From Siphonodentalium dalli (lineage: Eukaryota; Mollusca; Scaphopoda; Gadilida; Siphonodentaliidae), in NCBI GenBank assembly GCA_032622095.1, contig CP136064.1, forward strand, positions 197,499,948-197,563,947: a DNA stretch of 64,000 nt, read 5' to 3'. Shown here piece by piece: positions 3,181 through 64,000 of this stretch (within the stretch, counting starts at the first letter, position 1; each line of letters begins with the position of its first letter). The notes beneath the pieces are model-generated. The model had not been told where the DNA came from. It saw only the letters and a program-made list of their open reading frames with translations, and ran no database searches. The position numbers were made by a program, and so were the translations under genes.

Positions 3181-6100
3181 CCATTGAATTCAATACCCTG
3201 GAGAAATTCCATGATTGTTAGTGTCGCAATGCAAAATCGCACACAAAGTCCCTTAAATAATGTAATCTCGAGCTGGGATCTTCGCTGATGAATAAACCAT
3301 TAAAGGCACGGGCGCCGTTCGTTGCAGAACTATTCACATTTGTTCAAATCGCCATCAACAGAAGGAATATTAAAATATATATAGTTTTGTTCATATGCCA
3401 AACATAATCAGCACATAAATAGTATATTGTCGTCTGGTGTACGTAAACAAGAACATTCTCGTGTTACAGAAGTTTTGCTTCTGTTTTCATAACAGAGCGC
3501 AATTCTATTGGTTAATCACACAAAAATGATATAAACGCTCTTTATGATTTCCATATCAGGAAAACAGTAACAAAAAACGCTCTTTATGTTTACCATATCC
3601 GGATCTAAACAAAAGCCAGGTTCTGTAACGTTTTTTGCTTTTGTTTACATAAAGGGAAAACAGTTGACAATAACATACTGTATATGCCATATTTCTGATT
3701 GATATAAGAACAAGGTCTGTCTATATTTTACTATTCTTTCTGCTTATGGCGGTTTTTGATGGAGCTGAATATTTTAACAGCATACCCACCGCCGCCAGTA
3801 TCTTTAAACACGGTGTGACTAATTACCGCCCGGTACGGCCCGGGCGCCCCCACGGGCCCGTGGACACTATATCTCGACTATCTCGACATTATAAGGTAGC
3901 GACATACCACATGAGGGTAACCTAGGATTTTACTCGCTCGCTCGTCTCCGGTCGGTGTTATTAACCCCGAAAATGCCGATATAAGCTAAGAGAGACGGAT
4001 TTCCCGGGTGTCTTCGTGTGTTTTCGGACAGTATATATTGGTGATGCGTGGTAGTGCAATACACCTGAGTGTGACTTCCATATATTGACTCGTTGGCGCG
4101 TCCACGGCCGATGTTATTAACCCCTCAAAATCCGGGAAAATACAATATAAACAAAAAGAGCCAGAGACCGCCCAGGCGCCCCCATGGGCCCGTGGACACT
4201 ATATATCGACGTTATAACGTAGCGACATGCCACCAGAGGGCAACATACATGATTTTACTCGCTCGTTCGTCTCCGGTCGGTGTTATTAACCCCGCAAATG
4301 CCGATATTGGCTAAGATATCCCGGGTAATTGTATCGATGGACTATTGGCTTTGGTTAAATAACAAACACAGCAGACGGCATAGTGAACGAACACCTCATT
4401 TTCTGCAACAAATCTTTCTTGCGGATTCTCTGCTTCTTCTACAATAGCATGCTTGATATGGCATATATTCCACATAAACTCAAACTTGGTCTCATCATTC
4501 CACTCTACAAAGGAGAACCCAAACTCAAAGAACAGCCAGATAGCTACCGTGCAATAACATTGTTACCAGTGATTTATAAAGTTTATGAGAGCGTCCTCCT
4601 AAACAGAATCATCAAATCGCCGAGTTGTTCTGGGTTCCCACATTCGCTGCAGAATGGGTTCCAGAAAGGGATCAGTTGTGAGATGACTTCCTTCATCCTA
4701 GAATCTGTTGCATACACGAAAGACAATGGTTCCCGCGCTTACGTATGCTTCCTAGACTCTCAAAAAGCATTTGACAAGGTGTGGCACTCTGCCCTTTTAT
4801 TAAAATTGCATAACCTTGGGATCGACGACAAAATGCTTCAGACAATCCACAGCATGCATACTAATTGCAACAGTCGTGTTATATGTAATGGATTCATTTC
4901 GGAACAGCTGGAGATATGTCAAGGAACACGACAAGGAGCAGTGTGTTCGCCGTTTTTTTCATCTAGTGTACATAAATGACCTTATCAAAGACCTCTCAAT
5001 CACAACAGATGGTTTGAAAGTGTATGGAATTTTTTGTGCTGATGATATTGCGCTACTATCTTTAACAAAGAGTGGGATGGACTCGATGCTGTATAAGTGC
5101 TTTGAGTACAGCGTAAATGGAGATTCACGTTCTCTTCCACAAAAACCAAACAGTAGTTTTTAACGAATAAACGCATAAACACAACACAGTTCTAGCAGGT
5201 CGTGGTCTCTTGGTGGAACGCCTATCCATACACGAGGGAACGGAGTGCACCCACCTTGGTATTCTTTAGACCATATTCAAAACGGCGACTAAACGAGCAG
5301 AACTCATGTCACACAAAATGCGTCGGACATATTTTTCCCTATCCGGGAAGCAGAAACTGCAGTCTTGTACACCGACAACGATGATTAAGCTCTTCAAATT
5401 AATTGTGCTGCCCAGAGCTTTATATGGTGCGGAACTTTTTCCACTTGACAATCAGTCCGCCATACAAACTGTGGAGAAGTCGTTCCGATCTTGCATAAAG
5501 AACTGTCAATCTCCTCCAACTCGAACCAGATAGAATGTGTCTCTAAGTCTTCTCGGTATCATGCATGTGACAAGAGAACTACATGTGAAAAAAAACTTCT
5601 ATTTGTTGAGAAGCTCGTTCATCTTCCACAGGGGCATCAGATTCCTCTGCATCTATTCTTGCTGAAATTGAACCAATACGTGTTCTTCAATCGCCAGTAT
5701 TCTGTGTTCGTTGCAGATATCATGCCTTTGCTCCGCCAGTATGACCTTCTCAATGTTCTACTATAGAATACATGAACACTGGATTCTTTCCTGTTAAAAT
5801 GGAATGGAAAAACATCGTGAAATCTCAGTCGCAGCTCACTACAAACAGGAGTGGTTAAAGGTACGGTTGGCCTTGGCGGTGGGTATCCTGTGAAAATATT
5901 TCCACCCGTCAAAAACCGCCACAAATAGAAAGAACATCAAAATGTAGACAGACTTTGTCCGTATACAAATAAGAAATATCGCATAAACAGTATGTTATTG
6001 TCAAATCTTTGACCATTGTTATGTAAACAAAAGCATAAAAAGTTACTTTTCTGGTGTTTGTTTATATTATGATGGTAAACATAAAGAGCGTTTTTTGTTG

Positions 6101-9100
6101 GTGAATTCCTGATATGGAACTAATAAAGAGCGTTTATGCCATTTGTGTGTGATTAGCCAGTAGCATTGTGCTGTCTTCTGTCACACAATCAGGCTCTTGC
6201 TCAGGTAAAATATAGTATATGTCTTTATGATAGCATGCTGTTTACGTGATGGTCATGGTATATATGAACGAAACTGAATGCGTTTTAATGTTTTTCTGTT
6301 TACGGTGATTAGAACAAATATGAATATTTTCGACAACTAAGGCCTCACGTGCCTTTAAACTCTGTTTCATCTGACACTGATCTCTCTTTCTTTCTTACAT
6401 GTCACGCCGATCCTCTGTCTTCTTGGCGAATATGGTCTCTGCTTTCGAGTAACCGACACCGATCGAGAGAGCTGCGTCATTTGGTGCTTCTGTTAAATAA
6501 AACGGCATATCCGAATAGATTGTATTGTGCCCAATGTGGTTCATTCTACGACAATGAAATTACCCACGCGTTATTCTCCTGCAAAGCTGGCATTCTAATA
6601 CATCTATATATATATATATATATATATAGTGATCTACGCAATATCTTCATGGAGAGAATCATTGACATATTAGGGATCAGGGTTTTCGATCGCCTACAAT
6701 CCCTCTCACATGTGAACTTAACGGCGTTACTTCTAGGAAGTACCGCGCTCTGCGAATGGCTAGATATTTGGTCTAACTCAGGGGAGCTGATCGTTGTCGC
6801 CGCTGTGTTTCTTCTACACGCGTGCAACCTTATGCGGGGCACTCGTGCCTAAAGAAATGCGTTCATTCGCATGCGATTCACTTGTCATTGTTGTGTATTT
6901 GTGTGTATATATTGTATGTTCTATACATGTATAGTGTATATAATCTGACTCTCCATAGAGGAGGTATGAAAGATATATATATATATATGCATGGTCATAC
7001 TATTGATTTGTTCACAGGAGAAAAGAAGAAAGAGGCAGATTGCAAGAATGTTAAGGATGGACTGTATATACAGGACTGCACAACGTTCTATCGATGTAGG
7101 AATGAAACGGTGGAGCCGGTACCATGTCCCGCGAAGTTAGTGGTAAACAAGAAACAGATGTGGTGTGACTAGTGAGTATATGCTACATTGGGTTATACAA
7201 TCAGATCATGCTATGCCGTTGTCGCTGTAGTTTCCCATGTTGTCATTGGAGAACCCTGTATACAGGCATAAAGAACTTTTAAGGGTGCTGCATAATTTCC
7301 AGTATGTAGTTTGTTAGTATCAGCAGCAGGTAGAATAAGAATAACGAATTATTAAACCTTTCATGATTGGAGCTTTCTGAACTTTTGCGAAAACCCTGTG
7401 CTAATGCATTCTCGTATATTTGCGAGTCGCCCAAAGGGCGCCTCGCATATATAAGTGAATGCATTGGCCTAACAATATTTACCTTGATCTTGTAAGCCAG
7501 TGCATGCTCTTATATATGTGAGGCGTGGAATGGCGACTCGCATATATAAGAGAATGCACTGGCACAGATCCGGATAATTATTCCTTTTTGAATTATCAGT
7601 TTGCATCAGAGAATTGTTAGTTGTAGGCACGCGAACATATAACATTAGGTTAGGCTGTTATAGTTAAATTGGTATATTGTTTTGTAGATCATTGATGAAT
7701 TTGATAATTACTTTAAAGATACGGGCGGCGTTGGCGCTGGGTACGCTTTTAAAATATTCACATCCGTCAAAAACCACCATAAACAGAAAGAATAGTAAAA
7801 TATAGACATACTTTGTTCATATACCAATCAGAAATATGGCATAAACGGTATGTTATTGTCAATTTTCCCCCTTTGTTATGTAAACAAAAGAAAAAAACGT
7901 TACGTTTCCTGGCTTTTGTTTAGATCCGGATATGCTAAACATAAAGAGCGGTATTTGTTACTGTTTTCCTGATATGGAAATAATAAAGAGCGTTTAAATA
8001 ATTTTTGTGTGATTAACCAATAGAATTGCGCTGTGCTATGTAAACAGAAGCACAACTTCTCTGTAACACGAGCAGGCTCTTGTTTACGTACATCATCGTG
8101 CGCCTTGACGACAATATACTATTTACGCACTGATTGTGTTTGGCATATCAACAAAACTACATGTATATATATTTTAATATTCCTTCTGTTGATGGCGATT
8201 TGAACAAATGTGAATATTTATCTGTCTGTTTGTTTTCAATGGCCGGAAAAACTGCCGGACGGATTTCGACGAAATTTGATACCTAGGGATACTTTTGTCC
8301 GGGGAATGTTTTGGACGGGTCAAATCGTGGCCCCGACCTGACCTTGACCTTCAAATGGTCAATTGAAGGTAAAATCGCGCCTTTCGACGGATTTCGATGT
8401 TAGATCCACTGAGGTTTTCGAAAGCAGAGGGAAACAGCCCGAACGAAGTCGGGTTACCCTGCTAGTTGCATATATTCTTCAGTATAAAAGGAGATAGTCC
8501 CATAAATGACCGGATTTAGTGTACAATCCCCATTTAACTTGATGTTTGTTGAATACCTAGCGAATTGTGGTCGTGCCTAATTTGCTATATGTTTAGTAGA
8601 ACAAACTTCGCCCTTATCAGCTTGGGCTACTAGAAGGAGTAAGCCTAAACATAAATGCCTATCTGTATATCAACGAACATACATATTTTAAAGGTAATCA
8701 ATCCGATCAGACGCTCTTAAATTAATATTTCTTTGGGTTCGGGGGTAAAAAATATTTGATCCATCTTCATCCGCAAGATTATCCGTTTGACAACTTATTA
8801 TATATACTGCAGATCTCGAGAAATAACAAACTTCAAAAATCGATATTTGATCACTCTGAGCTTCGATGGGTGGGTTCCTCGACTCGAATCAAATATTTTT
8901 TACCCCTGAACCCAAAGAAATATAAATTTAGGAGCGTCTGATCGCATTGAGTACCTTTAATTTGAAAACATGGTATCAATTGCTGCGTTGGTTGTTGCAG
9001 TGTGAATTGAAGAATCGTTATAATTGAGACCGTCTCGCAAGAAACCTAAATCTTCTCAAATGTTCGCCTTTTATGGGCAAACCGAAATGATTTAATATAG

Positions 9101-12100
9101 AACGCGTACATGTAGAAAGCATAAACGTATATCGATAGAAATAAGGGGTGTCCGTCCGTCTAAAGTTTGAATGTGGGATCTTTCGATGAATTTCGATGGA
9201 ATTGTGCCCTATTCGACTTAGAATTTGCTGATTATATTAATATGATGACAACTTGGTTTATAGTTGTCCGATTGCTGTATCAAATTGGGAATGTGTAGTG
9301 CATGTATTCACACGAAGGTGCATGTCAAGTTGTAATTGACTTTTATTGCTTTTAAAGGCCCACTTAATTTTCGAACCCCCAGATCACATGTATAAAATAT
9401 ATGCCATATTATATACCATTATAAAGAGGAAGCTCCAAAACATTATACTATCAACTTATCCGGTGTAATTAACTGTGAACATGTTGTTTTTTTTAGATAC
9501 CGACGTGTTTTGTCATCTAGATTGTAGTAAAGGTGTATTATTCTCAATGGGGGAGGAATAACTCTATATTTGAAATATAGTTATTCCCCTTCCATTGAAA
9601 ATACATTTTTAGTTTTAATTCTGTTGCATTCGGGAGCCAAAACGGGGGGATTCTTCCTAGGATTTCAGCTCTTTTCTATTTCTCTATGAGCATCTTCTGA
9701 GACACAGACGTTTCAAAATGTGATGAATTATATAGTATTTTAATCATATATTATGGCAAAGATTGTTATTATAACCATATATGAAGAGGCCAAGGCTTCT
9801 CGTGTTTCAAAGCGGCCTGTTGTATTTTAAAATATGCTGTCAATGGTTGCGCACCAATCTTAAATACTGAGCCCAAAACTAATTTTCTTGATTTAGCCCT
9901 TTTTTCTTGCTGAACATTTTGTTTTATCAACTATCATCATTAATCTTGACAAAAATTATATTTCTATTTACAATTCAAAGACACCTTGATTCGGGGGACG
10001 TGTGGTCTGGGACCTTTTATCGGTTTGGAACCTAGTACTAGAAACACGTATTTATCGTATTTTGGCCACACTTTGTTGGTTGGAAAGAGAATGTTACTCT
10101 TTATCCATTGTTATCATATATCTACCAGTATAAGGCAGGAAGTCTTTAAATTTCAGCCAACATAAATACTTATTGGTATATATATGTAGGCAGTACTAAG
10201 CATGCCATTTGCTATGTTTACACTATCTGATGCACACTCCCCTTAAAAATGTTATATGGTATATACATGTAAGGGCATGCATGTTTTCAGTTCTAATTGC
10301 TCAGTGACATATGGGTACTCTACCTTTATATGTATTCACTATACTGCAATTAATTGCACAATTGCATAACTTTTCCAAGCTATGGACTACCTTTTTTGGT
10401 TCTCTTACTTAAATTTACATACCTGATGAGAACTTTATTTATTTATAAAAATGAACAAAAACCCTAAAATACATAAAATCCCTCCTTCTTAAATAGCTTC
10501 ATTCTATCTCTTTACTAACATCTTTCTTATTATGAAATACATACATGTATACCATACAACTGTTTCCATTTGTCTTTTTGTGATATTTCAAATTTATATT
10601 ATGCCATGTCGATAGATATGTCTATGAACTGTCGGGGTCTGTGCGATCGCCAGAAGAGACGAGATGTGTTTGACTACTTAAAAAGTAAGAAATTTTACAT
10701 AATCTGCTTACAAGATGTGCACTTCGGAAAAAATCTGGAAAATAATATAAAATTTGAATGGGGGTACGAGTGTTACATTAGCAGTTATTCTACATCATCG
10801 AGGGGTGTCGCTATTCTACTCCGAAATTCTTTTGAATATAAGATCCATGACATCAAGCGTGACGAAGCAGGGAATTCTCTTTCGTTAGATATTGAAATTG
10901 AAAATAAGCGTTTTACGTTATTAAATATATATGGGCCAAACACTGATCAACCTAAATTTTACGAAAAGCTTAGTGAATATATGGCCACGGTCAAGTAGTC
11001 AAACTTTGTTGTATGTGGAGATTTTAATATAGTGCTCAACCAGAATCATGATTCCGTGAATTACGTGAGACATAATAATCCTCTTGCTCGTAAAGATCTC
11101 TTGAAGGCTATGGATCGTAACGGTCTAGTTAATGTTTGGCGAGCATTAAATCCAGAAACAAAGCGTTATACACGAAGAAAGAAAACATCAATAAAACAAG
11201 ATCGTTTAGATTACTTTCTTGTATCCGAATGCATGCTTTCACTCACCAGAAAGGCAGATATACGATATACACCCCGGTTATACGACAGCTCATTCTATTA
11301 TCTCATTAAATTTGAATTTGACAGAATTCACCCGTGGCCGTGGATATTGGAAATTCAATAATTCTCTTCCGAAAAATACAGACTATGTCAATGAAATTAA
11401 CAAATTAACTGAGACCAAAGAATCTCAATATTTTGACGAAAATGGACAACATCTAGAAATTAATGACCAACTTTTTTTCGAAACGCTGCTTATGGAAATA
11501 GGAGGTAAAACTTTAGAATTATCATAAAAAATCAAAAGAAAACGAGTGAAAGAAGAAACTGAATTTATAGCTAAAATTGATAACTAAGAAAAGGAAAATA
11601 CTAATGAGATATTGGAACAGATGAAAAAATATGAAACTAGCTTAGAAGAAATAAGGAAATACAAACTTGAGGGGATGATGGCAAGATCTAGAGCAAAATG
11701 GATCGGCGAAGGAGAGAAACCGAGTAAATATTTTTTAAACATTGAAAAACCAAATCTTTAACTATGCTACAAACACCAGATGGTGCAGCGTTAGAAAAAC
11801 AAGAAGATATTTTAAATGAGGCATGTAAATATTACGGTAAATTATATGAATCAAGAGAAGAGAAACTCTCTTCTAGACATTTGACTGAATTTCTCAAATT
11901 AAATAATATAAACGACATAGAATTAAATAAGCTCCAAAAATAACACATGTTAAATTAGATAGTCCAATATAGTCCAATATCAGATGTTGAAGCTTTTGAA
12001 TTTTTGAAAAAAACAACAAAAGTCCAGGTTCCTTTGGCTTCTCAGTGTAATTCTATAAAATGTTTTGGGCAAGCTAGATCATTTCTTAGTACGCTCTTTG

Positions 12101-15100
12101 AATTATGGTTTGGCCAGAGGGGAACTGTCTGTAACACAAAACATGGCGTAGTAATACTATTACATAAAGACAATAAACAACGACAGTTTTTAACAATTTG
12201 GACTCGGAGGCCGATATCGCTCTTAAACGTAAGCTACAAAATTTTATCAGGAGTTCTCGTTGCCCGTTTAAAATATGTTTAACCAGACTTGATAGATGAT
12301 GATCAAACAGGCTTCATATCTGGACGTTACATTGGAGAAAACATTCGCTTAGTAGCAGATTTTATCCATATTACACACACACACCCTCACACACACCCTC
12401 ACACACACACACACACACACCCACACCCACCCCCGCACACACACACACACACACACACACAAACATTCATGGCCTATTGTTTTTGCTTGATTTTAGAAAG
12501 CTATTGATTCTTCGTCATGGACTTTTTTATGTCTCAGGTTATGAAAACTTTTAATTTCAGCAACACTTTCATATGTTACATAGAAACTCTATGTAGAGGA
12601 ATCAACTCAAATCTTAACATTAATGGAAATGTGTCTCCATCTTTCATGATACAACGTGGTTGTGGACAAGGTGACCCAATATCACAATATATTTTTTTAA
12701 TATGTACAGAAGTATTAAGTATAGCAATAAGAAAATGTAAGAAAATATAAAGGATTGAGATCGGTAAGTTATGAATTCAAAGTTAGTCAATACGCCGTTG
12801 ACACAAATTTATTCCTCAATTGCGATGCACAGTCCCTGGACAGTACATTTGAGCTACTAGAATATCTGGACTAAAATCAATTATAACAAGACCTTTGCAG
12901 TTTGGATTGGGAGCAAACGTGAAGCCATGTGTGACAAGTGGAAAATAAAGTGGAATCCAGAACACTTTCGCATTCTGGGGATTAAATTTAACTTATCCGA
13001 TGATGACTTATTAACTGTAAATTATGATAAAGTGATGAAAGATATAGATAGAATTATCAATTCCTAGTCATGCAGAAATTTGACCCCACTAGGACGAACA
13101 ATTGTTTTGAAATCTCTTATTTTATCTAAGTTATCATTTCTTTCTCAAACCTTACCAAACACTAGTGTTGACTACATTAAAGAATTAACAAAGAAAATCT
13201 ACAAATTTATTTGGCAGCAAAAGCCAGATAAAATTTCACGAAGACAGCTAAAACAGACTTACTCATTCGGAGGTTGCAAAATGGTTGATATAGAATAATT
13301 CATGAATTCAATGAAGGCAATTTGGATGAAAAAAACTTATTTTCGAAAGTGGCAAATGGCAGAATCTATTTGAATGTTCTTTTGATAATCTTTCAGAAAA
13401 CTGGTTTCTAGCGAGCCCCACATCATTAACCAGACAAAGCAAAATCATATCTTGTGAATTTTGGGCCCATGTCATTGAAGCATTGGCAATATTCTACAAA
13501 GCTATAATCCCTGAAACACTTCACCATATAAACAATAATAAACTGACGGATAATCCTAACATTACCTTCAAAGGGAAAATGTTAATGTTCATGTACTAGA
13601 AAAGAAAGGTATTTTATTTGTTGATGATTTACTTGACCATGATGGCCACATAATGTCTCGGGAAGCACTGGAAGTATATAAAAATTGATTTTTTGACATA
13701 TCACATAGTTTATTCATGTGTAAAACATTTCATAGATAAATTCTGTTTAGTGTCCCATGCAAGAAAGCTTCATCGCCCGATAATGCATTTTCAGTTAAGT
13801 GTTCTTCAACAAACTTCATCTAAAAACATATATATTAAAATGTGTGGACAAGATAAAATAGTTAAACCTTTCATGAAGAAATGGGAATTTGAATTAAATG
13901 ATATGCTTACAGACGAATGGGCTAAGATTTTGATTTCTCCATTTCACTGTTGCGTGGAAACCAAATACAAATGGTTCCGATACCGAATTAACACAATAAT
14001 TCTAGGTACTAATGAACTTTTGAAAAAGATGATTATTAAAAGCTCGGATGCATGCTTTTTCTGTGGTAAAGTCAAGGAAACATTAAAACATCTTTTTACG
14101 ACTGTCCTATAATTAATTCACTTTGGCATGAAATTCAAATGTGGGTTTTGAGAAAAACTGGATATACAATAGATTTGTCACCAAAAAATTTAATTCTTGG
14201 AAACTCTGAAGACTTTGACCTAGCACAATTTTTGCTAATTTTTACTAAGTTTTATATGTACAAATCAAAAATGAGGGACAAAATTCCTAATTTAATTGAG
14301 TTTAAAATAGATTTAAAATTCTATTATAATGCTGAAAAAATAGCCTTTTCAATCAATGTCTTTATGAAAAATTTAGGGATCGTTGGGCTGGCTGGAAGCG
14401 CTTGGTCAAATAATAGGAGAATCAAGAGATACTAAATTAAAATATATGATGCATTGCTCCAACTGTCAGCTTGGCTGAGCCTTTATGAATGATATTTTGG
14501 CTTAAAATATAAATATAGAAAGCCTAAGTTCCAGTTCTGCCTCATGCTGTATATTGTCCTTAACTTACCTTTACATAACTTAACACAACATACTGAATGG
14601 ACTTTAATACGGAAATGTAAAAAAAAAAAACAACCCCCTGAATAAATCAGAATTCTAATCAACAATATTACAAATCTGATTAAAACTCAAAGCCAGTCCT
14701 AGAGCCTTGATATAGAAAAAAAACTGATAGTAGCTCACTCATGTTCCATTAATCTAAGACCACGACAAACAGAAATATGAAAACAAAAATATTATTATCT
14801 ATTAAAATGTATTTTTTCACACTCTATATCTTTTTTCTTTTACTAACATTTCTCCTCTGATTTCAACTATTGAACTCTCTATAACTGACTCCAGTAATTC
14901 TCCTTTTCTATTTAGCATACAGTATGTTTATTATATCACCTATATATATTTTTGTTGACCAAATAAAAATATTATATAAAAAAAAAATCAATGGTTGCGC
15001 TGGTTGATGCACTGGGATGTAAACTGTCATTTTAGTTGGAAACCTCTTGCGACAATTCGCATTTGGTTGGAATATTTCGAATATCTCTGGTATTTTTGTG

Positions 15101-52269: not shown

Positions 52270-53000
52270 GAATTTCAGAAAAATTGTTACCCCCCATCTG
52301 GAGGTCACCACGAAGAACCATGTGACGTTTGGATGATAAATGAGGGATGCGGCATATAGGGTGTGCCGAAGGATTTAGTCATGCATGCATGAACAGAGTA
52401 ACATTCAAGATGGCTGCTGGCGAGGCGACCATGTTTTTCAACGAATTGAGGAAGAATTGGCTGGCTCCCATCTAGAGGTCACCCAAAGATCCTTATGAAG
52501 TTTGGTGACGATTGGATGAGGATTCTGGTCTGTCGGTTGTGCAGAAGGATTTAGTCATGCAAAGAGCAAAATCCAAGATGGCTGCTGGCAGCCATGTTTT
52601 TAACGAATATCAATGGTCCCCATCTAGAGGTCACCCCGAATATCCATATGAAGTTTGGTGACGATCAGATGAGGGATGTGGTCTGTGGTGTGTGCCAAAG
52701 GATTTAGTCATATTAAAGATGGCTGCCGGCGGCCGTGTTTTTCATCTTAAAATGTTCAAATTTGATAGCTCCCATCTAGAGGTGATCTTAAATATGCTTG
52801 GAAATTTTCAAAACATTTCTCCAATAAACGCGGGCTGCAGGGTGTGCCAATGAATTTAAATTTGAAATCAAAGATGGCTGCTGGCGGCCATCCTTTTTAA
52901 TGAATTTCCAGAGGTCACCCGAAGTATGAAGTTTGGCGATGAAAGATTATCCCTGTAGGGTGTGTCAAACGACGCACGGATGGACGCCCCGATGGACGGA
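52270..53000 (+). repeat. Degenerate tandem repeat, unit about 150 bases
   Basis: CCCATCTAGAGGTCACC recurs near 52297, 52468, 52619, 52768 and 52908, with AAGATGGCTGC and GGATTTAGTCATGC in each unit. Ends in a GATGGACGGATGGACGGACG run. Nothing recognised in 53040-53658. Confidence 0.85.
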
Positions 53001-53658
53001 TGGACGGACGACAACCCATAGCAATAGCTCAAACTAGGTTGAGCTAAAACAAAAAATGTCATGTATCTTAAAATATGGCTGATTATGTCACAAGATCCTT
53101 GACCGAAATGATTCGTACTCCAAAAGCCCAACCATTAATCATAATTGATATATACCTTCACGAGCGCAACTATGCCGTAGTGGGCGTCTTGTATAATATG
53201 AACTCTTTTTCTTTGTCAATAGTGGCACGTGGAATATGATCGTGTCTTAATATGCCAGCTCATTGTCACGTGACTTCCCGGTATATTGAGCCTTAATGCA
53301 ATGGACCATAGTGCCATAACATTACAGAACACTGTCCCATTAGTTTAAGTAACATAATACCGTTGTATCATATCTATATTGAACATAGTACCATAATCGT
53401 TAATAACATTTTACAATAAACTTATGCAACGTTGTGCCATAGCCTAGTGGGACTTTGTACCGTAGTACCATGAAACATTATTGTGTCGATATAGAACATT
53501 GCAACCTATATTTACGAAAAATGTGCCACATCTATGCGGATCTGAACTTTACGGCACTATGTGCGAAACAATTTTCCGGAACTTTATTCCGTTTGAAAAC
53601 GGAAATTTTATAACATTTTATACATAGCATGACCCAAAACCAGTGAAATGTGGCGTTA

Positions 53659-53934
53659 TTAACCCTTGACTTGTCCCCATGACTGGAGCTTCCTGAAATG
53701 TTGAGAAAACCCTGTGCCAATGCATTCTCTTATATGTGCGAGTTTCCCCATAGAGTGCCTCGAATATATAAGAGAATAAATGTGCCTAACAATTTTGACC
53801 TTGACCTTGTTAGCCAGTGCATTCTCTTATACATGCTGCGAGACGCCCTATGGGAGACTCGCATATATAAGATAATGTACTGGCACAATATATTTAATTC
53901 TGCAACAGCGCAGCTCCCACCATGCAAGGGTTAA
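53659..53934. mobile_element. Double-hairpin MITE, variant outer ends
   Basis: TTAACCCTTGACTTGTCC to CATGCAAGGGTTAA; two diverged hairpins built on CCAATGCATTCTCTTAT. Confidence 0.8.
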
Positions 53935-54097
53935 AACAGGTCCTTATACCCTTTGCACTAAAATTATAATAAAGGAAGGAATTATATAAACAGTATTACA
54001 TTATAATCAGTTGAAGGTTCATTTGGCACTGATCTCATGTGGGCAGTATTATGTGAAATGTATTTAATATAGAACAATATCGTGCACCATCTCATTC

Positions 54098-54220
54098 GGT
54101 GTGTGTGTGTGTGTGGGTGGGTGTGTGTGTGTGAGGGTGTGTGTGGGTGAGGGAGGGTGTGTGTGTGTGGGGGGGGGGGGGGGTGTGAGGGTGTGTGTGT
54201 GTGGGGGGGGGGGTGTCCCC
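54098..54220 (+). repeat. (GT)n/G-rich low-complexity tract
   Basis: GT repeats broken by G runs of up to about 13. Long open frames across it on both strands are composition artefacts. Nothing recognised in 54221-55229. Confidence 0.92.
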
Positions 54221-55292
54221 AATGCATATGACAGATTTATTTGTTCTCAAGCCATCAGAGAATTGCACATAAAAGTAAAAAAAACAATACATTTTACATT
54301 ATCGGTCAACAATGTGAGAAGGAACAACATACATGTACACATTTAAGATATATAATTATATGGGAAAACATGATTCTGAATTCTTTACAAACACATTGTA
54401 TGAATCTACACAATTTCCTTGTAATTACCATTTTTGTATTCGAAAGTAAAATTCCGAGTTTATAATTGCATGCTGGGGCTTCGGTGATATGATCGATGTG
54501 TCAGCATGTTTCTATCTTCGTCAAAATATGGGCAATGGAATCGCAATTCACAACAGGGATAAACATAAAACATAAAATGAAGCCCATGGTAGAACATTGA
54601 ATTAACAAGATGCTGTATGGTGGCATTGTAAGATATATCACACATAGCATATGTTTATTTTGTCCATAGTATGCACCAGGCTGGAAAATGCATTTGTTTT
54701 AACAATAATTGGGAATTTCACATTATATGCATGATTAACACAACTAACTGATTAACTACAAACTATATATGATATAGATTCCAACACGTAACTAGTAATC
54801 AGCAGAAAACCGACTCGCCACTTCGAATTGGCTACAAACCTTCGAATCGGACATCGTAAGCGGAAACATGCAGATTGTAATCGATGGCGTGTTATAGGGG
54901 TTAACTGAGAAGTGAAAGCGATGTCATCCGAGCCATGCTTTCCGTGGAGGTATGTCGATACAGATGCACATTAGGCGAGAATTTCATTCAGATAGCTCAA
55001 CAAAAAACAAATTGATTTATAGAGAAAGATGTTGTGAACATAGGTTCTTGTGATACGGCCCTGGTCTTTAAAAAGACAATGACTCTATTCAACCACCATA
55101 TGTTTGCCAATCGATTAAGTAGTTAAATAGCTGTCCAATAGAGTGGCTAATGGTATGCAGAGCATTGTCTATAGTTCACGGTGGCACCAGAATGAGCTTT
55201 TATATATACACCTAAGCTGGCAACGCGGTGGGGGGGGGGGGGGGGCGCATGGGAGGATGTCATCCTCTCCCTCACTGAATCCTGAATACCAG

Positions 55293-55854
55293 TTAAAGAT
55301 ACCGGCGGCGTTGGCGGTGGGTATGCTGTTAAAATATTCAGCTCCGTCAAAAATAAAAACCGCCATAATCAGAAAGAACAGTAAAATATAGACAGACCTT
55401 GTTCTTATACCAATCAGAAATATGAAATAAACGGTATGTTATTGTCAAATGTTTGTCCTTTGTTATGTAAACAAAAGCAAAAAAAAGTTACAGAACCTGG
55501 CTTTTGTTTAGATCCGGATATGGTAAACATAAAGAGCGTTATTTGTTTCTGTTTTCCTGATATGGGAATAATAAAGAGCGTTTATATCATTTTGTGTGAT
55601 TAACCAATAGAATTTCGCTGTGTTATGAAAACAGAAGTCAAACTTCTGTAACTTATGTAAACAGAAGTCAAACTTCCGTAACACGAGAAGGTTCTTGTTA
55701 CGTACACATCGTACGTCTTGACGACAATATACTATTTACGCGCTGATTATGTTTGGCATATGAACAAAACTATATATTTTTTAATATTCCTTCCGTTGAT
55801 GGCGATTTGAACAAATATGAATATTTCTGCAACGAACGCCGCCCTTGACTTTAA
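55293..55854 (+). mobile_element. TTAA MITE family A, copy 7
   Basis: TTAAAGATACCGGCGGCG to GACTTTAA. Flanks are CCTGAATACCAG on the left and CAGAGGGTGG on the right, which join through TTAA to make the minisatellite unit seen at 19500. Contains a short internal duplication of AACAGAAGTCAAACTTC. Confidence 0.9.
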
Positions 55855-56047
55855 CAGAGGGTGGTGAATACCAATTAACATAGGGCGTGAATACTGAATA
55901 CCAGAATAAGAAAATATGTGTGCAGGACATATATTTCACTGAAACTTCAGTATCTTCATCACTTTTCTGAATAGTAATCTGCCAAATGTAGCATATTAAG
56001 AGATAAGACATGATAGCTATATATTACTCTATGTTCCGGCAAGGGGT

Positions 56048-56498
56048 GACCGGATGCGCTTAAACACCTCTAAATTCGGTGGGGGGGGGGGGGTAAAAAT
56101 ATTTGATTCGAGTCGAGGAACCCACTAATCAAGGCTCAGAGTGGTCAGATATCGATTTTTGAAATCTGTTATTTCTCGAGATATGTACTTTTTTCCGCCT
56201 GGCAAATATTCGTCTAACCGACCAAATTGCGGATGAAGATGGATAACTCTAAACTCAAATGGTAGTACTGCCAAATTTCGTGATGGATAATCAAGTGATA
56301 ATACGGCCATATTTCGTTGAACAACATGTTGATAAATAACACGTTTTGGGAAATTTTATACTATAGTTGACAGTGGTTAGCATTATTTTTTACAATTAAT
56401 CGATTCTCATAACTAAAGCGTATTTTGAAGAAATGTTGTTGTCGTTGTTGTTGTAACTTAATGATATCGGGACCGTCGATCGGATTGAGAACCATTAA
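56048..56498. mobile_element. Family C MITE, degenerate copy 3
   Basis: GTAAAAATATTTGATTCGAG and GATCGGATTGAGAACC ends; a G run (56081) replaces part of the left arm. From 56499 to 58414 no gene was seen, apart from isolated AATAAAGAGCGTT motifs at 56818-56876. Confidence 0.65.
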
Positions 56499-58414
56499 CA
56501 GAACGAGACATAAAAAGTGATTTAAAAAGAGTTAAAAAGGGCCCAGTCTAGTCCTCAAATATCAAAATGCGTCGCCACCAAAGCCTTTTATTTGAACACA
56601 GAATAGCATTTAAGAGGGGTGTAAATCCTGAATACCGGTCAATAGCCTGATACAAACGTTCCTGTTTTGTATATATTGTTGTGTGACTTCCCATATGCCA
56701 TGATCTGATTTGACCAGTTGAATACCCGTAGAGGCATGAAGCCTGAAACTATGCTAGCATTTGCCATACCCCGGTCCGGTTCAGTAGAAGCCATACAGTT
56801 TAGAAATGTTTCCTCCAATAAAGAGCGTTACTCGTTAATCTATTCCTGATATGACACAAATAAAGAGCGTTTAATTGATCACGATTTGAAACTGATGATC
56901 ATTATGACTTTCGCGAGTATTTTCAGATTCTATAAAGCCTTATATCGGTATTTCAAATTTAACATAGCAAATGCTCGTCTTCATCTCGTTCTATATGATT
57001 TAATGAGGTCGCTAAAGACATGGAATACTAGGACCTGTTTTTCTAAATCATATGACTTCTCGGCCTATTTTGACCCCCGGAATCGGAATGCGACCCAAGC
57101 AAGCATTATTATGTATAATGTGGTATCCAAAGCGCACTGCGACTTCATTTAAATCATTCTTTTTTTTTATATTGAAAATTCCCGTTTTAAATAAGTTTGT
57201 TTAAGTGCGAGGTCGAGACGACCCTTTCATACGGTGCGGGATTCGTCCCGTTCAAAGAGACACCACGGGTAAGTTGATGAAAAATTGATCGCATTGCATA
57301 TATACGGTGTATTGTCAGTTTGATGAGGTCTCTCGACTGTTGTTCCGGCATCGTGATCAAGTCGATTGTCGATCCGCCATCGTGATCAAAAGATTTACGC
57401 CATCGTATCCCATTAATAAAAGATCATGAACAAAAAACGACGCCATGATCGTCTAGCCAATATATCGATTAGAGACTGAAAGGCGAGGAAATTATATGTG
57501 TTTACATATTCCAAACAGACACACAATCTTCAAATTAAGCCCAGTAGGCCTACTATTAATGTTAGTAATCGTATATATAATCACTCGCTATATATTGTAA
57601 AATTATAAAAGGCTACTCGGAATGTGCTGGCAACTAAACCAGGCAATTTCTCGCTTTTGTCACATTTTGGGTCGATATGAATATACCTGCATATACTTGA
57701 GAAAGATACCCCATGGCCATATGTGCCATATAGCAGGACATAATTAGTTGGCACACATGAACCCTATACCCTTAATAGGAGGAGTTTTAGTACGATTTCT
57801 TTATTATTTCTCGGTTTCTGTCGGAAAAAAATTATACTAATTTACTCTGACAAAGAACACCCATGCGTTCATTACACAAAATCGTTAGATAGTGAAAGAG
57901 CGTTTACGAGCCTTCTATATTCGATGCATTATTTGTCAATGCTTGATTGGTTTTCGCTGTGCATATGCCATAAGAATTTTTCTGATTACAATTACTTTTC
58001 AGTTCAGATAAGCGGAAAATTGGCGTAGGAAATTCTGACTAACTTCGTTTATAAATATTTTATTGTGGACTGTACACTGACATGGCATCGGGTCCACAAA
58101 CAGAAAATAAACAGAACGTGACAATCGCAAAGTGCAACACCGACACTCGGGGGATACATATGATACATGCATGTCTGTGCAATCTACATAAGGGTAGTGT
58201 TTTTATCAGTAAACGGTGGACTGATAGAAAGATCTGAAATCAGACCCATGTGAGATGCTTTCAGTCAATCGTGATCTCATATTGAATCTAGCATTTAAAA
58301 TAGTGACGGACTAATAAGTACTATCTTACAAATGTCTGTATGTTATTTCTCAGTGTACGATAACAAAACAGAAAAAATTCAATGGTTATGTTATCATACA
58401 ATTCATGCAACCCT

Positions 58415-58871
58415 TTAACCCTTTACCCAACAGAACGGCCATGTGGCAATGCATTCTCTTATATATGCGAGTCGACCATTGGTCGCCTCGCATATATAAG
58501 AGAATGCATTGGCTTAATACATATTATAAATGATAAAATTGTCAAAGAATGTAGAAAAATATTATAAAAATTGTTAAAAAATGTAAGAAAACATTATAAA
58601 ATTGTGTTTAAGAATGTAAGAAAAAATGGTAAAAAGTGCTAAAAAAAAGGCCAATGCATTCTCTTATATATGCGAGGCGACCTATGGTCGACTCGCATAT
58701 ATAAGAGAATGCATTGGCACAGGGCATAACTATAACCATCACAATGTGGTCAATGAACCGGTTCCAATGATATCCATATTTGTATATTGTTATTGAGACA
58801 GACCGAAGATATTTTAGGCTGTGGAAGCTTTATTTCGGCGTTTTTGGTCGTTTTGTTGGGTAAAGGGTTAA
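58415..58871. mobile_element. Double-hairpin MITE, full copy 2
   Basis: TTAACCCTTTACCCAACAGA to TTTGTTGGGTAAAGGGTTAA; 69-bp palindromes at 58445-58513 and 58650-58718. Almost the same as 27241-27630, with a longer spacer of repeated TTGTTAAAGAATGTA-like words. Nothing recognised in 58872-59795. Confidence 0.9.
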
Positions 58872-59795
58872 ATAGTGCTTCTCTCTATTCTCTAAAAAGA
58901 GGCAAATAAAACTAGTGTCAAATTGTGAGGAGCATCTTCAATAAAACGTGTCCAACCCGACCATGATGGCTTTCGGGGAAGGGTGAGAAAACGAACAAGA
59001 TTAAATACGAATATATTAATTATATTCTAAGTCAAACGAACAGTATATACATGTAGCACAGTTAAATATCACAAATTACACAAGAACAGACAAAAGATAG
59101 CACATATACAACCGAGCACTGACATGATTTTTTAAATATTCAATACAATAAACTACAAATGAACACAGATAATGGAACACATACAACTACATTAGCCCAA
59201 TGTCGGTCATGTTTCAGATTTGAAAATTAATATGTTATGTGTTCATGTTTTCGCGATAAAGCCGATCTTTAGCCAATCTGAACCATTAGGTATAATTATT
59301 TTCTCGAAAGGAATTCCTTAGTCAGACATATTTAGCCTATACTTTGCATGCGCTATAAAGTCAATTAACAGATATCGCAGATCACAAACAGTAAATTAAT
59401 GACTAATATATGAACATGTTCAAATGAACTTCATTCAGATTGATGATATTCTGTTTAAATAGAAAGGTTTTCAATTACAGATAAATGTTAAGACGCAATA
59501 GTGGCGGCATGCGTAAAACATGCATGTTAGCTTGAAGAGCCACTGGTCAGGAAGATCGTTATTTCATAACTTATAACTTTTAAAGAATATGGCACACATA
59601 TCACCAACATATTATTTTTGATTCGAATAAGATCACTAAAATGAACCAAACATTGGTACTATATGCAAGCAGTAAATAGTGCGGATTTTGGCAGGTCGGG
59701 GAGCCAACATACTCCGTTAAAGAGCTATACGTTTTATATATCTCCGGTATATAGGAAAGTACACACGAAATGAGTGTACTATTTCGACCTGATGT

Positions 59796-60094
59796 CTACC
59801 ATCTCTCTTCGGTGATGTCGTCTGTCATGTCGGCGTGCAGGGGCGCATGGTCGACGGTGAGCAGAGGTTTGGGCGCGACGAAGAAGACTGGGCGGCTGGA
59901 CGACAAGAGACTGGCTGTCAGCATGCTCTTCGTGACGTCATCGATCAGCTTGTTCTGCAGGAACAGGGTGACGTCATTGTCGAAGAAGGACTTGATGCAA
60001 TCCACAAGGTCATCTTTAGTTTGTGGTTGTTGTCTGGTAACACAGGTTTTCAACTGCTTCCAAAGCTTTCGCGTCGGGTTGAGATGTCCACTTT
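59796..60094 (-). CDS. Transposase-like gene exon 2
   Basis: Begins with the SGHLNPTRKLW block, then KQLKTCV and QPQTKDDLVDCIKSFF, the C-terminal helices of Tc1-family proteins. It continues for about 60 residues with weaker similarity to the stop. The intron before it is 1106 bases. Confidence 0.72.
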
Positions 60095-61822
60095 CTGCAA
60101 TGAAATAATAAAACGATGTGTAGCATAATGTCAAATTGTAGATAGCCATACATGTAGTTGGGTGACCACATGGGCATTGACTTGCGAAAGATTCAAGTGT
60201 TTTTCGTCCTATCGAAGCAGTTGTTCCAGCTATTAGATTTGACACATTGACCAAAATGTGTGCAATAAAATCAAATTTATACCAAGAAGCAATAAAATCC
60301 CGAAGTCCTAAAATCGGGAGCCAATATTTCGCAAAGCTTACTATTTGTCACATAACAATTACCACTGCATAATAAGCACACACTTCCGAAACAGATCTTA
60401 AAAGAAACATTAAGAAAATTGTGCTTATATTATGGTTTAGATGTAGTGGGTGAATTAAATTTTGAGATGATATGCACCGCCATAATGTATATTAAGGATT
60501 TACAATTATATTACTGTTAAATATTTTCGATGACAGTTTGGAATACAATAGTTAGTTTCTCTCAAGTTTTATCTGCCACTGACAATATTATGTAAGTAAC
60601 GCAAGTTTTGATTAATATTTATACATTACTATATGTTACTGGGGTTCAGAACAAATGGAAACACCTTGCTATCAATGTGCTGCTACTGGAACAGTTAATA
60701 TGACAAAGCTACACTAAACTTTCAAATCTCAAATTAAGCATAGCAATATGTTTCAACAATTCCGGGTATCAAAATGGGTCGATAAATACATGAACATGTT
60801 TATGCATGCGTTTGAACGACATAATAGAACGAAAAAGATGGACTATTTTGTTATTTTTGTCACATTTTGTATATACGTTAACCGATAATTTTGTTACCAT
60901 GTACAACTCTTCATACATTGGAGGAAATAAAGGTAAGAAGGGAATTGTCGCAATAAAGATTACAGCGATCCTTACAATTAAGAGCACCATCTGACATTTT
61001 TCTACTCATATGGTAACAATAAAGAGCGTTCGCTCCTTTATTGGCGATTAGTTGAATAACTTAATAAATTGTTCTTACTTCATGTGCACTACTGTGTATT
61101 GATCGCCTCATTTTGGATACCCGACACGTGACAATAGCAAGCTGTGTTATGCTTTATTTGAGGTCTTGAATATTTAGTATTTAATATTTTAATCTCTTAC
61201 CTGCGGGCCACTGCCAACAGTTGATACCATTGTCGAGCATAAAGTGTGATGCGGCTTTAGACCGAGAAACCGCGTCGTTGTTGTGGACGAAGCGATGCGT
61301 CGAATCGGGAGATCTCGAGCGGACAGTTGGAAGAACGTGGCGCTGGAGCATGCTCTCGACGTAGAAACTCTGATGTAAGCTACCCTCGAAGATGATGTAC
61401 TGCATGTCGCCCTGGCGAGAGATTGTACCCCATACGTGAACTACCACTGGTGCGGGGGTATCAGACTCAGGAATTTGTTGGTCGCCGTTTGAAGAGGTTG
61501 GTATACGGATGGAACACCTGCCTGTGAAAATACAATCGGCGAGTCTATCGTTGTTGGAGACTACTTCAGAACACATGGCGATGAGAGCGGCTTTGTTGGT
61601 TTCATCGACACATTGGGCTGGTGATGATTCGAGACCGTAGGCTGCCAGCTCTGGATTGAAGTAACCACTGTGGTATTGTTTGATGTATCGACGAACCTGT
61701 GCCATGGTCACGACGTCGGCATCGGCGTTGATATGGTTACATATGGCACGTGTTGACCATCCGGATTGGAACTTAGCGACGATTTCGAGTTTCTGAACAA
61801 GCGAAAGTTGCCTGGGAGCCAT
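59796..61822 (-). CDS. Two-exon Tc1/mariner-type transposase homologue lacking the catalytic triad
   Basis: Join 61822-61201 and 60094-59796 on the minus strand: 921 nt, 306 aa plus stop. The donor is CAG/GTAAGAG and the acceptor TTTCATTGCAG. Joining in phase 1 gives WPAESGHLNP, the known Tc1-family block before the last catalytic residue. Residues 1-55 look like the helix-turn-helix DNA-binding region. VHVWGTISRQG (128-138), IIFEG and FYVE are typical of the DDE domain. The acidic triad is gone: family IFTDES is IFTGRC (G101), QDND is HNND (N181), and NPIENLW is NPTRKLW (R216). Spacing is still that of DD34E. The start at MAPRQLS matches family starts; a longer frame begins at 61942. Cutting activity is not expected, but the intact frame and intron suggest either a host gene that binds DNA or a fairly recent relic. 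No terminal inverted repeats were identified around it. Confidence 0.75.
61201..61822 (-). CDS. Transposase-like gene exon 1
   Basis: 207 codons plus one base: the DNA-binding region and most of the DDE fold through WPA. Ends at a consensus donor. Codon 1 is the MAPRQLSLVQ methionine; an in-frame ATG 120 bases upstream would add 40 hydrophobic/basic residues that do not resemble the family. Confidence 0.75.
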
Positions 61823-62272
61823 CACAAACGAGCAAGCAAGCACAAACAAAGCTTTGTTATTATCACAGTACCAAAAACTCAGACGAGAATAGATTATGAA
61901 AATTATTTGGAAAATTTGACCTTTATAGATAGACCTATACAATGGGATAACTGGTAGTCAGGTATGATGAACCAATGGATGCTGACGTCTAATCCGAGGA
62001 AGACACTGAGGATTATAATTAGTCCTGATTAATTTATCACCCTGGTTGAGATTCCATAATCCCCCTATATATTGGATACTATTCAGGATTATGTACTTAA
62101 TCCGCACATGTTATGATAACATTTATGATTCAACACTAATCCCTGTTTTGACATTAGAATCGACTCTAATTTATCGCACGTCCATCAGTAACATCTCAAA
62201 TGTATCTGTTCCATAATTTATTATGATGCCGTAAAACAAAAGGTTGTAAGATCGATCCCTTGCCAACACACA

Positions 62273-63144
62273 GGTGTTATTGCGCTACCACGCATCACCA
62301 AAATATACTGTCCGAAAACATACGAAGACACCCGGGCTCCCCGGGCTCTCTTAGCCAATATCGGCATTTGCGGAGTTAATAACACCGGCCGGAGACGAGC
62401 GATCGAGTAAAATTTTCTAGATAACCTTTCGTGGGGTATGTCGCTACGTTATAACGTCGAGAAATACTGTCCACGGGCCTATGGGGGCGCCCGGGCGGTC
62501 CCGGGCTCTTTTTGTTTATATGGTATTTTACCGGATTTTGAGAGGTTAATAACATCGGCCGTGGACGCGTCAACAAGTCAATATTTGGAAGTCAGACTCA
62601 GGTGGTATTGCTCTACCACGCATCGCCAAAATATACTGTCCGAAAACACACGAAGACACCGGGCTCCCCGGGCTACCCAATATCGGCATTTGCTGGGTTA
62701 ATAACACCGGCCGGAGACGAGCGAGCTTGTTAAATTTCTAGGTTGACCTCGTGGGGTATGCCGCTATGATATAACGTCGATATATAGTGTCCACGGGTCC
62801 ATGGGGGCGCCCGGGCGGTCCCGGGCTCTTTTTGTTTATATGGTATTTTACCGGATGTTGAGGGGTTAATAACAACGAGTCAATATTTGGAAGTCACAAT
62901 CAGGTGGTATTGCACCACAATGTATCACCAAAATATGCTGTCCGAAAACACACGAAGACACCCGGGATTAACCGGGCTCTCTTAGCCAATATCGGCATTT
63001 TCGGGGTTAATAACACCGGCCGGAGACGAGCGAGCGAGTAAAATCTTCTAGGTTGCCCTCAGGTGGCATGTCGCTACCTTATAACGTCGATATATAGTGT
63101 CCACGGGCTCGCGGGGACGCCCGGGCGGTCCCGGGCGGTAATTA
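62273..63144. repeat. GC-rich modular repeat, right block, about 3 units
   Basis: Units of 300-330 bases start near 62273, 62601 and 62903, each with AAAATATACTGTCCGAAAAC, CACCGGCCGGAGACGAGCG and GGGGGCGCCCGGGCGGTCCC. The block ends GGCGGTAATTAGTCACACC, the inverse of the start of 3815-4330. From 63145 to 64000 nothing was recognised. Confidence 0.88.
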
Positions 63145-64000
63145 GTCACACCCGTCTGAACTGTTAAAATTATTGATGCATTTGTATTACTTCTTTATGC
63201 TTTCTCGTGGAATAGACAGTCCGTGTATTATTATAGTAAGAATTGATTCACTGTTCTATGGATATATCTGCCCTTGTCTTTTAAATTACATGTGTGTACC
63301 AGAGATATCGGTATATATATCCGTCGAGACATGAATATATTGGACGATATTTGGAAATGTTTAACTAATGTTCCCGTGGGGCTTTCTTCATCAGTTAATA
63401 TAACATTACCTGATAACAAAACGAATTATACAGTGACTGCTGGCACAAAAAATTAGCACACAGTCAGACTGTAGTCTTATAAATCATGATTACATTAACA
63501 ATTGTATAAATTTGTATAAATTATCGTATTAATAACAGTCGGTCTCACAATGTGGTCACCGCTATAAAATGTTTGTCACTTAATGTATGCCTCACGACAA
63601 AGCTACACAACCCATTATTAGTTTATCATACAGCATAGATCATATAGAAATTGAGTATTTTTGTTATTTGGGTGTCAGAATATAAATATTTTTTTCAATG
63701 CTTTGACAATTTCAAACGCTTACTGACAAGTATTCATTTAACTTTGGTATGTTATTGAACTAATATCACTATAATAGTAATGTCTACATAAAAACGACTC
63801 CGACACGCAGAACTCTGTATACCATGCACCGGAGAACCACCTTGATACTGTATTTCACTCAAATAATACAATCACATGTGTAACAGGAACTATGGAAACA
63901 TCACTGATTTTTTCCAGCCAGAATGTCTAAATAAATTAATGGGAATCCATATGGTATTTCTGTGCTTGTCGTCATAATTACGATCACAATTCCAACGTCG

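Follow-up and report, generated by a model that had tools for sequence, protein, structure and literature searches.

The gene on the minus strand at 59796-61822 of the 64,000-nucleotide stretch of DNA analysed here (the window) encodes a 306-codon protein in two exons and belongs to a Tc1-derived family, called here the dead family, in which all three catalytic acids of the transposase have been replaced. The explanation that we consider probable as a whole is that the family consists of exapted, non-cutting host genes, which would most likely be DNA-binding regulators. Its parts differ in strength: exaptation under selection appears very likely from the sequences, and for the DNA-binding regulator as the working mode we see roughly even chances. 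A Tc1 (DD34E) transposase in one ancestor would have lost the three catalytic acids and the second helix-turn-helix, and would have retained the intron of the transposon together with the first helix-turn-helix and the RNase H-like domain. It would have multiplied through tandem and segmental duplication, not transposition, and the dead protein would then have been maintained by purifying selection. The loss of the acids and of the second helix-turn-helix, the spread by duplication and the purifying selection can be read in the aligned copies or follow directly from them. In the protein itself, the N-terminal helix-turn-helix may touch DNA, the dead RNase H fold could serve as a scaffold that keeps the protein dimeric or DNA-bound, and the variable C-terminal tail, or a Pro/Ser/Thr-rich insert of about 100 residues in most array genes, could meet partners.

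Gene structure and loss of the catalytic residues

Exon 1 (61201..61822, minus strand) encodes codons 1-207 and the first base of codon 208, and its end is the same in the dead relatives and in the Tc1 copies on contigs C7 and C8 that are described below. Exon 2 (59796..60094, minus strand) carries the remainder of codon 208 to codon 306 and the stop codon. Between them lies a phase-1 intron of 1106 nt (60095..61200, minus strand; GTAAGA...TTGCAG), which falls within the catalytic domain (WPA^ES) at a site common to 25 dead-family models and the two Tc1 copies. The two-exon frame with splice signals anticipated by the original prediction was thus borne out on the minus strand, and its proposal that splicing rebuilds the block around WPA^ES is independently backed by the same-site, phase-1 intron of the C7 and C8 transposons and by the 25 dead two-exon models, for which the search pattern itself demanded GT and AG at the splice site. 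The same GT/AG pattern found four additional dead-family exon-1 ends whose exon 2 was not located. Given its own base composition, exon 1 would be open by chance with a probability of 2e-4, and GC content is 0.52 in the coding sequence and 0.33 in the intron. Three further statistics were set aside: the GC3 of 0.60 is a weak sign of selection, with values of 0.50-0.58 in six transposon-type relatives; the CpG ratio is uninformative (1.11 in the gene vs 0.95 in the window); and a bacterial promoter scan returned four sites where 2.3 were expected, by a method that is not applicable to an animal-like genome.

Codon 101 (61520..61522, minus strand) is GGC, encoding glycine where the first catalytic aspartate is expected; codon 181 (61280..61282, minus strand) is AAC, asparagine in place of the second aspartate; and codon 216 (60069..60071, minus strand) is CGA, arginine at the position of the catalytic glutamate. 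Translation and alignments confirm these three replacements as they had been predicted, and alignment likewise confirms that the DD34E spacing is retained in the window protein. The sole solved relative found by sequence is Sleeping Beauty (PDB 5cr4), which matches the window protein with an E value of 7.7e-10 and a family profile, made from five dead proteins and the intact C7 protein, with an E value of 4.2e-22. In this alignment HNND pairs with HDND and NPTR with NPIE, and against transposon-type relatives from the same genome FTGRC stands opposite FTDEC, HNND opposite QDND and NPTR opposite NPVE. The first motif had been given as FTDES, which needs correction: the nearest relatives have FTDEC, FSDEC or FTDET, and one has FTDKC. 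The DDE catalytic domain is recognisable in the window protein by sequence, with the catalytic D, D and E gone, and Pfam DDE_3 scores 25.7 bits, under its 28.6 cut-off.

The replacements extend through the family. Motif patterns with the catalytic position left free, applied to the fetched dead stretches, found the acids retained in 0 of 28 copies at the first position, 0 of 30 at the second and 0 of 27 at the third. Glycine occupies the first position in all 28; the second holds threonine (20), asparagine (9) or glycine (1), and the third lysine (24) or arginine (3). Gly101 is conserved in all 19 readable rows through three codons (GGC, GGT and GGG), and the residue after it is arginine (AGA or AGG) in 18 of the 19 and isoleucine at C4:157. 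Each of the three acids is present in all eight fetched transposon-type relatives, at least three of which are otherwise damaged (a stop at C7:82.0, a short frame at C1:65.4 and the frame change in the C8 copy). Judged by these residues, no dead-family member that was read would be able to cut. In a tree built on 286 of 509 columns, with one row of fewer than 200 residues omitted, the 24 dead rows form one clade against nine transposon-type rows with support of 100/100, a separation to be read with the program's warning in mind: the outgroup branch and the dead-clade branch are both long and join each other. The neutral loss of three acids with the frame still open has a probability no higher than 2e-4, or 1e-5 once indels at an assumed rate are included, for one copy in a genome that has many Tc1 copies.

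The DNA-binding region has changed as well. Residues 1-55 (61658..61822, minus strand) hold the first, PAI-like helix-turn-helix, where the Pfam matches, including weak ones to HTH_23 and HTH_28, are every one below the cut-offs. The second helix-turn-helix (RED, HTH_Tnp_Tc3_2) is absent from the dead copies, in which the alignments show a gap, and its profile matched one of six aligned members, the window protein being among the non-matches. The paired PAI and RED domain of Tc1 is therefore incomplete in the window protein, its RED half missing. The first helix-turn-helix and its counterpart in the C7 element share 21% identity; the search for solved relatives of this segment gave none that was convincing (best E value 0.75), and CENP-B_N matched one of seven N-termini (E value 0.13). 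No relatives were found among viral contigs, and a Tc1 motif pattern used as a query returned 0 matches.

Genomic copies, the parent-type transposon and element ends

A protein search of the 2.23-Gb, 9-contig genome with the window protein listed 134 matches. Related dead-type loci, counted from these matches, number at least about 32 and lie on two contigs (C4 and C5), chiefly in tandem arrays: 15 loci at C4:60.17-60.66 Mb and 12 at C5:145.41-145.52 Mb, alongside the window gene, copies at C4:202 Mb, C5:10.86 Mb and C4:157 Mb, and a fragment at C5:0.445 Mb. Complete two-exon models could be built for 15 of the roughly 32 loci; the others have stops, frameshifts or lost starts, are truncated by the limits of the fetched stretch or, at C4:157, need an additional intron. 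Eight loci among the more distant matches were examined in detail, and five more (L004-L008) by translation. The tandem units of about 2.9 kb are 93-96% identical, repeated flanks included. Duplicated units take in flanking DNA and vary in extent, and the arrays have a birth and death pattern in which near-identical copies stand beside broken ones.

Two kinds of insert were observed among the copies. Genes of the arrays at C4:60.20-60.66 Mb and C5:145.41-145.52 Mb carry the Pro/Ser/Thr-rich insert of about 100 residues, which follows the first catalytic motif and precedes the remainder of the RNase H domain, and it is absent at C4:60.17-60.19 Mb; these inserts of most array genes appear to resemble interaction segments. 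The C4:157 paralogue (L053, near C4:157367610-157368310) has an insert of about 690 nt in exon 1 with the direct repeat AAGGTATC at its bounds. The same repeat provides AG|GT splice sites, and removing the insert brings the frame back, which looks like the conversion of a mobile insert into an intron.

The closest copy of the window gene lies in a long inverted duplicate of window 52327-63273 (no strand assigned), found 4.8 Mb away at C4:202.339-202.358 Mb (C4:202.34-202.36 Mb in round figures), the true ends of which are beyond the DNA compared. Identity is 98-99% over most of 52327-62266, 95.3% at 58556-59359 and 94.5% at 62266-63273, and large insertions distinguish the duplicate from the window. 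Either a genuine duplication or a haplotype placed wrongly in the assembly could explain it.

The parent type is represented by two elements of 8.58 and 8.60 kb, at C7:136812113-136820696 (L050/L067/L068) and C8:144641744-144650340 (L045/L065/L066). They have CAGT inverted repeats of 25 nt at their ends with TA on both sides, and are Tc1 transposons; their 99.5% identity over 8612 aligned bases, on two contigs, marks them as recently mobile. The C7 transposase is open in two exons with the DDE triad intact, and its intron has the codon and phase of the dead-family intron; the N-terminal part of the C8 copy is in a different frame. In L001 and similar Tc1 relatives the site is read through without an intron. 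With its counterpart present in the C7/C8 Tc1, the dead-family intron was inherited from this type of transposon, and it was ruled out as a sign of domestication.

Are there element ends around the dead genes? C7-type ends, with up to 6 mismatches allowed, are absent from the window and 10 kb beyond it, from 19 kb around C4:202, from 20 kb of the C5:145 array and from 6 kb at C5:10.86 and another 6 kb at C4:157, in a scan whose positive controls, the C7 and C8 elements, were recovered at both ends; at the remaining array loci the flanks of about 1.5 kb would not reach distant ends. CAGT-type terminal inverted repeats with a TA target duplication were likewise not found at the window gene in the window and 10 kb beyond. 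The replaced acids and the missing Tc1-type ends rule out an active transposon. The original prediction had proposed a search for terminal inverted repeats within 2 kb, and one inverted pair (58536-58563 and 63685-63712) does flank the gene on both sides at that distance, with 24 of 28 positions matching, better than all 40 simulated flanks, the best of which reached 21. The 58536 arm falls within the AT-rich inner part of a dispersed element that recurs, in weaker form, at four further places in the 195 kb searched. Both arms are AT-rich and have no CAGT start, unlike a Tc1 end. We read the pair as a probable repeat remnant rather than element ends, and it was set aside in the latter role. 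Four other dead stretches contained no inverted repeats paired around the whole gene; at C4:157 an inverted pair of 79 nt (81%) encloses the first exon piece.

Other content of the window was also recorded. The dispersed element that contains the 58536 arm spans 58414-58872; its ends are inverted repeats of 28 nt (TTTAACCC...), and its internal palindromes are common to many places in the window and to other loci. We take it to be perhaps a piggyBac-like MITE. A tandem repeat of about 310 nt in three imperfect copies (62243-63136) lies immediately upstream of the gene. Further away are an exon with a chitin-binding CBM_14 domain at 6777-7169 (Pfam E value 1.6e-6) and LINE remnants at 4359-4976 and 10519-14109, with reverse transcriptase, endonuclease and zf-RVT matches.

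Selection and competing explanations

Under the MG+F3X4 codon model, applied to 285 codons of 14 of the 20 aligned dead genes, some partial, omega for the dead family is 0.234 (lnL -4955.8 vs -5119.1 at omega 1; 2 delta lnL 326.6). By region it is 0.28 for residues 1-64 (12 rows), 0.235 for 65-207, 0.152 for 208-272 and 0.364 for 273-306. The window gene and its C5:10.86 paralogue, which are 80% identical in exon 1, diverged after the acids were lost, since they share the replacement residues; for this pair dS is 0.272, dN 0.105 and omega 0.38 (bootstrap 0.25-0.57), and the four coding gaps, of 3, 24, 12 and 3 nt, are each a multiple of three. Pairwise ratios between the window gene and array genes are indicative only, dS being saturated. 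The dN/dS comparison that had been proposed earlier gives values well below 1, and the suggestion that selection for a non-cutting role, more than random decay, kept the frame open is borne out by an omega of 0.23 in the family and 0.38 in the pair, and by the preservation of Gly101 through three codons.

Outside the coding sequence, the same two genes are 91% identical upstream (230 aligned bases), 70% in the intron (445 alignable bases) and 49% in the 3' flank, where the value amounts to no real similarity. The upstream stretch (61823..62060, approximate limits, minus strand), with TATAAAGG at 61920-61927, is likely to be promoter and 5' leader. In this pair a TATA-like box is found at -105 and -102, and 8 of the 13 complete array genes have one at -83 to -91; taken together, 10 of 15 complete dead genes carry such a box between -83 and -105, compared with 4.3% of random window positions in the interval -75 to -110; the compared genes are related, hence not independent.

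The youngest comparison is different. The C4:202 Mb copy is 99% identical to the window gene and has a 1-nt deletion that shifts its frame; the two differ by six nonsynonymous and two synonymous changes, with an omega of 0.86 (0.15-2.57). Purifying selection after the loss of mobility is thus present family-wide and between the window gene and C5:10.86, and is not visible in the youngest pair. On that branch constraint cannot be seen, and the window gene itself could consequently be relaxing. The family would then be functional and the window gene a recent duplicate or allele on its way out, as its frameshifted nearest copy, situated 4.8 Mb off within the long inverted duplicate, might suggest. 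We regard this as rather unlikely: only eight changes separate the two, the interval still spans strong constraint, the window copy and its splice sites are intact, its upstream stretch is conserved, and omega against C5:10.86 is low.

Why would a transposase that cannot cut be retained at so many loci? One answer is that the dead proteins act mainly as repressors of living Tc1 transposons, occupying their ends or poisoning transposase complexes, with the arrays caught up in an arms race. The recent mobility of the related 8.6-kb Tc1 on C7 and C8 and the mixture of near-identical and broken array copies would fit, and a precedent exists in the tandem P-element-derived genes of Drosophila guanche, which reportedly function as repressors. 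Yet the dead family has lost the second helix-turn-helix, in the window protein the first shares only 21% identity with its C7 counterpart, and no copy of the C7 terminal repeat turned up close to the dead genes searched, for most array loci within flanks of about 1.5 kb; we regard the repressor role as rather unlikely too. By analogy with zinc-finger repressor arrays, a clustered, fast-duplicating dead Tc1 family with lysine or arginine replacing glutamate could be viewed as guarding its genome, at the protein level, from living Tc1 elements, an idea that we hold to be somewhat more doubtful. Another answer is that the dead gene rides aboard a non-autonomous element moved by the transposase of another element. 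Copies on two contigs, some far apart, and the above-chance 28-nt inverted pair around the window gene speak for this, and because of that pair we lowered our estimate for exaptation very slightly. Against it, the duplicated units carry flanking DNA and differ in extent, the left arm of the pair belongs to a dispersed AT-rich repeat, neither arm is Tc1-like, and no pair around the whole gene occurs in the four other dead stretches, making the reading highly improbable. Least probable of all is that these are ordinary decaying Tc1 copies, open by chance. Their Tc1 ancestry, number and several broken members would be expected of such copies, but omega well under 1 after the loss of the acids, a single clade with the same replacements, coding gaps that are all in frame, the conserved upstream stretch and the failure to find Tc1-type ends would not. 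The original prediction had named many copies with inverted-repeat ends, or dN/dS near 1, as marks of ordinary decay; the copies are indeed many (about 32 loci), Tc1-type ends were not found and dN/dS is not near 1.

Exaptation of a non-cutting protein is accordingly the reading that we prefer. One genome combines a recently mobile Tc1, with the same intron, and a derived clade, about 32 loci strong, which has lost all three acids and half of the DNA-binding domain and is still selected. The sequence of loss, duplication and refunctioning becomes directly testable, and the family offers a clean case for the role of an RNase H fold that is incapable of cutting.

Comparison with known systems

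To our knowledge, most genes converted from Tc1/mariner-group transposases are vertebrate ones of pogo or mariner descent. The dead family resembles Tc1 (DD34E), as represented by the C7/C8 elements and Sleeping Beauty (PDB 5cr4), in its active-site motifs and DD34E spacing, and the phase-1 intron at WPA^ES is common to it and the C7/C8 Tc1. Unlike Tc1, it is without the D, D and E, the second helix-turn-helix and the CAGT repeats with TA flanks, and its C-terminal tail differs. We class it among the domesticated transposase genes, as a variant, rather than among the Tc1 transposons. Descent from pogo with a CENP-B-type helix-turn-helix was not found: in a tree that contained no pogo protein, the nearest kin are DD34E Tc1.

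In the pogo-derived TIGD genes the catalytic motifs are eroded, with the first D present in every motif listed in PMC7325037. Like these TIGD1-7/CENP-B type genes, the dead family would be a Tc1/mariner-group transposase turned host gene, its motif eroded and its frame open. It differs in its origin from Tc1 rather than pogo and in the replacement of all three acids, where the TIGD motifs listed there keep the first D; it also forms tandem arrays within one genome and has lost half of its helix-turn-helix region. Tandem clustering is shared with the P-element-derived genes of D. guanche, cited in PMC8616336, which come from the P element rather than Tc1. A survey of metazoan transposon-derived transcription factors (PMC10027918) names Tc1 only once, within its reference list. 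No Tc1-derived dead family of this kind was recognised in the open-licence full-text papers searched, which is weak evidence of absence. In Xenopus, according to the abstract of PMC6004289, many apparently domesticated Kolobok-derived genes occur alongside recently active relatives. Both genomes would hold many domesticated genes with active kin alongside; the Xenopus genes belong to another superfamily and, as the abstract describes them, arose through multiple independent domestications, whereas the dead family is a single clade that shares one set of replacements.
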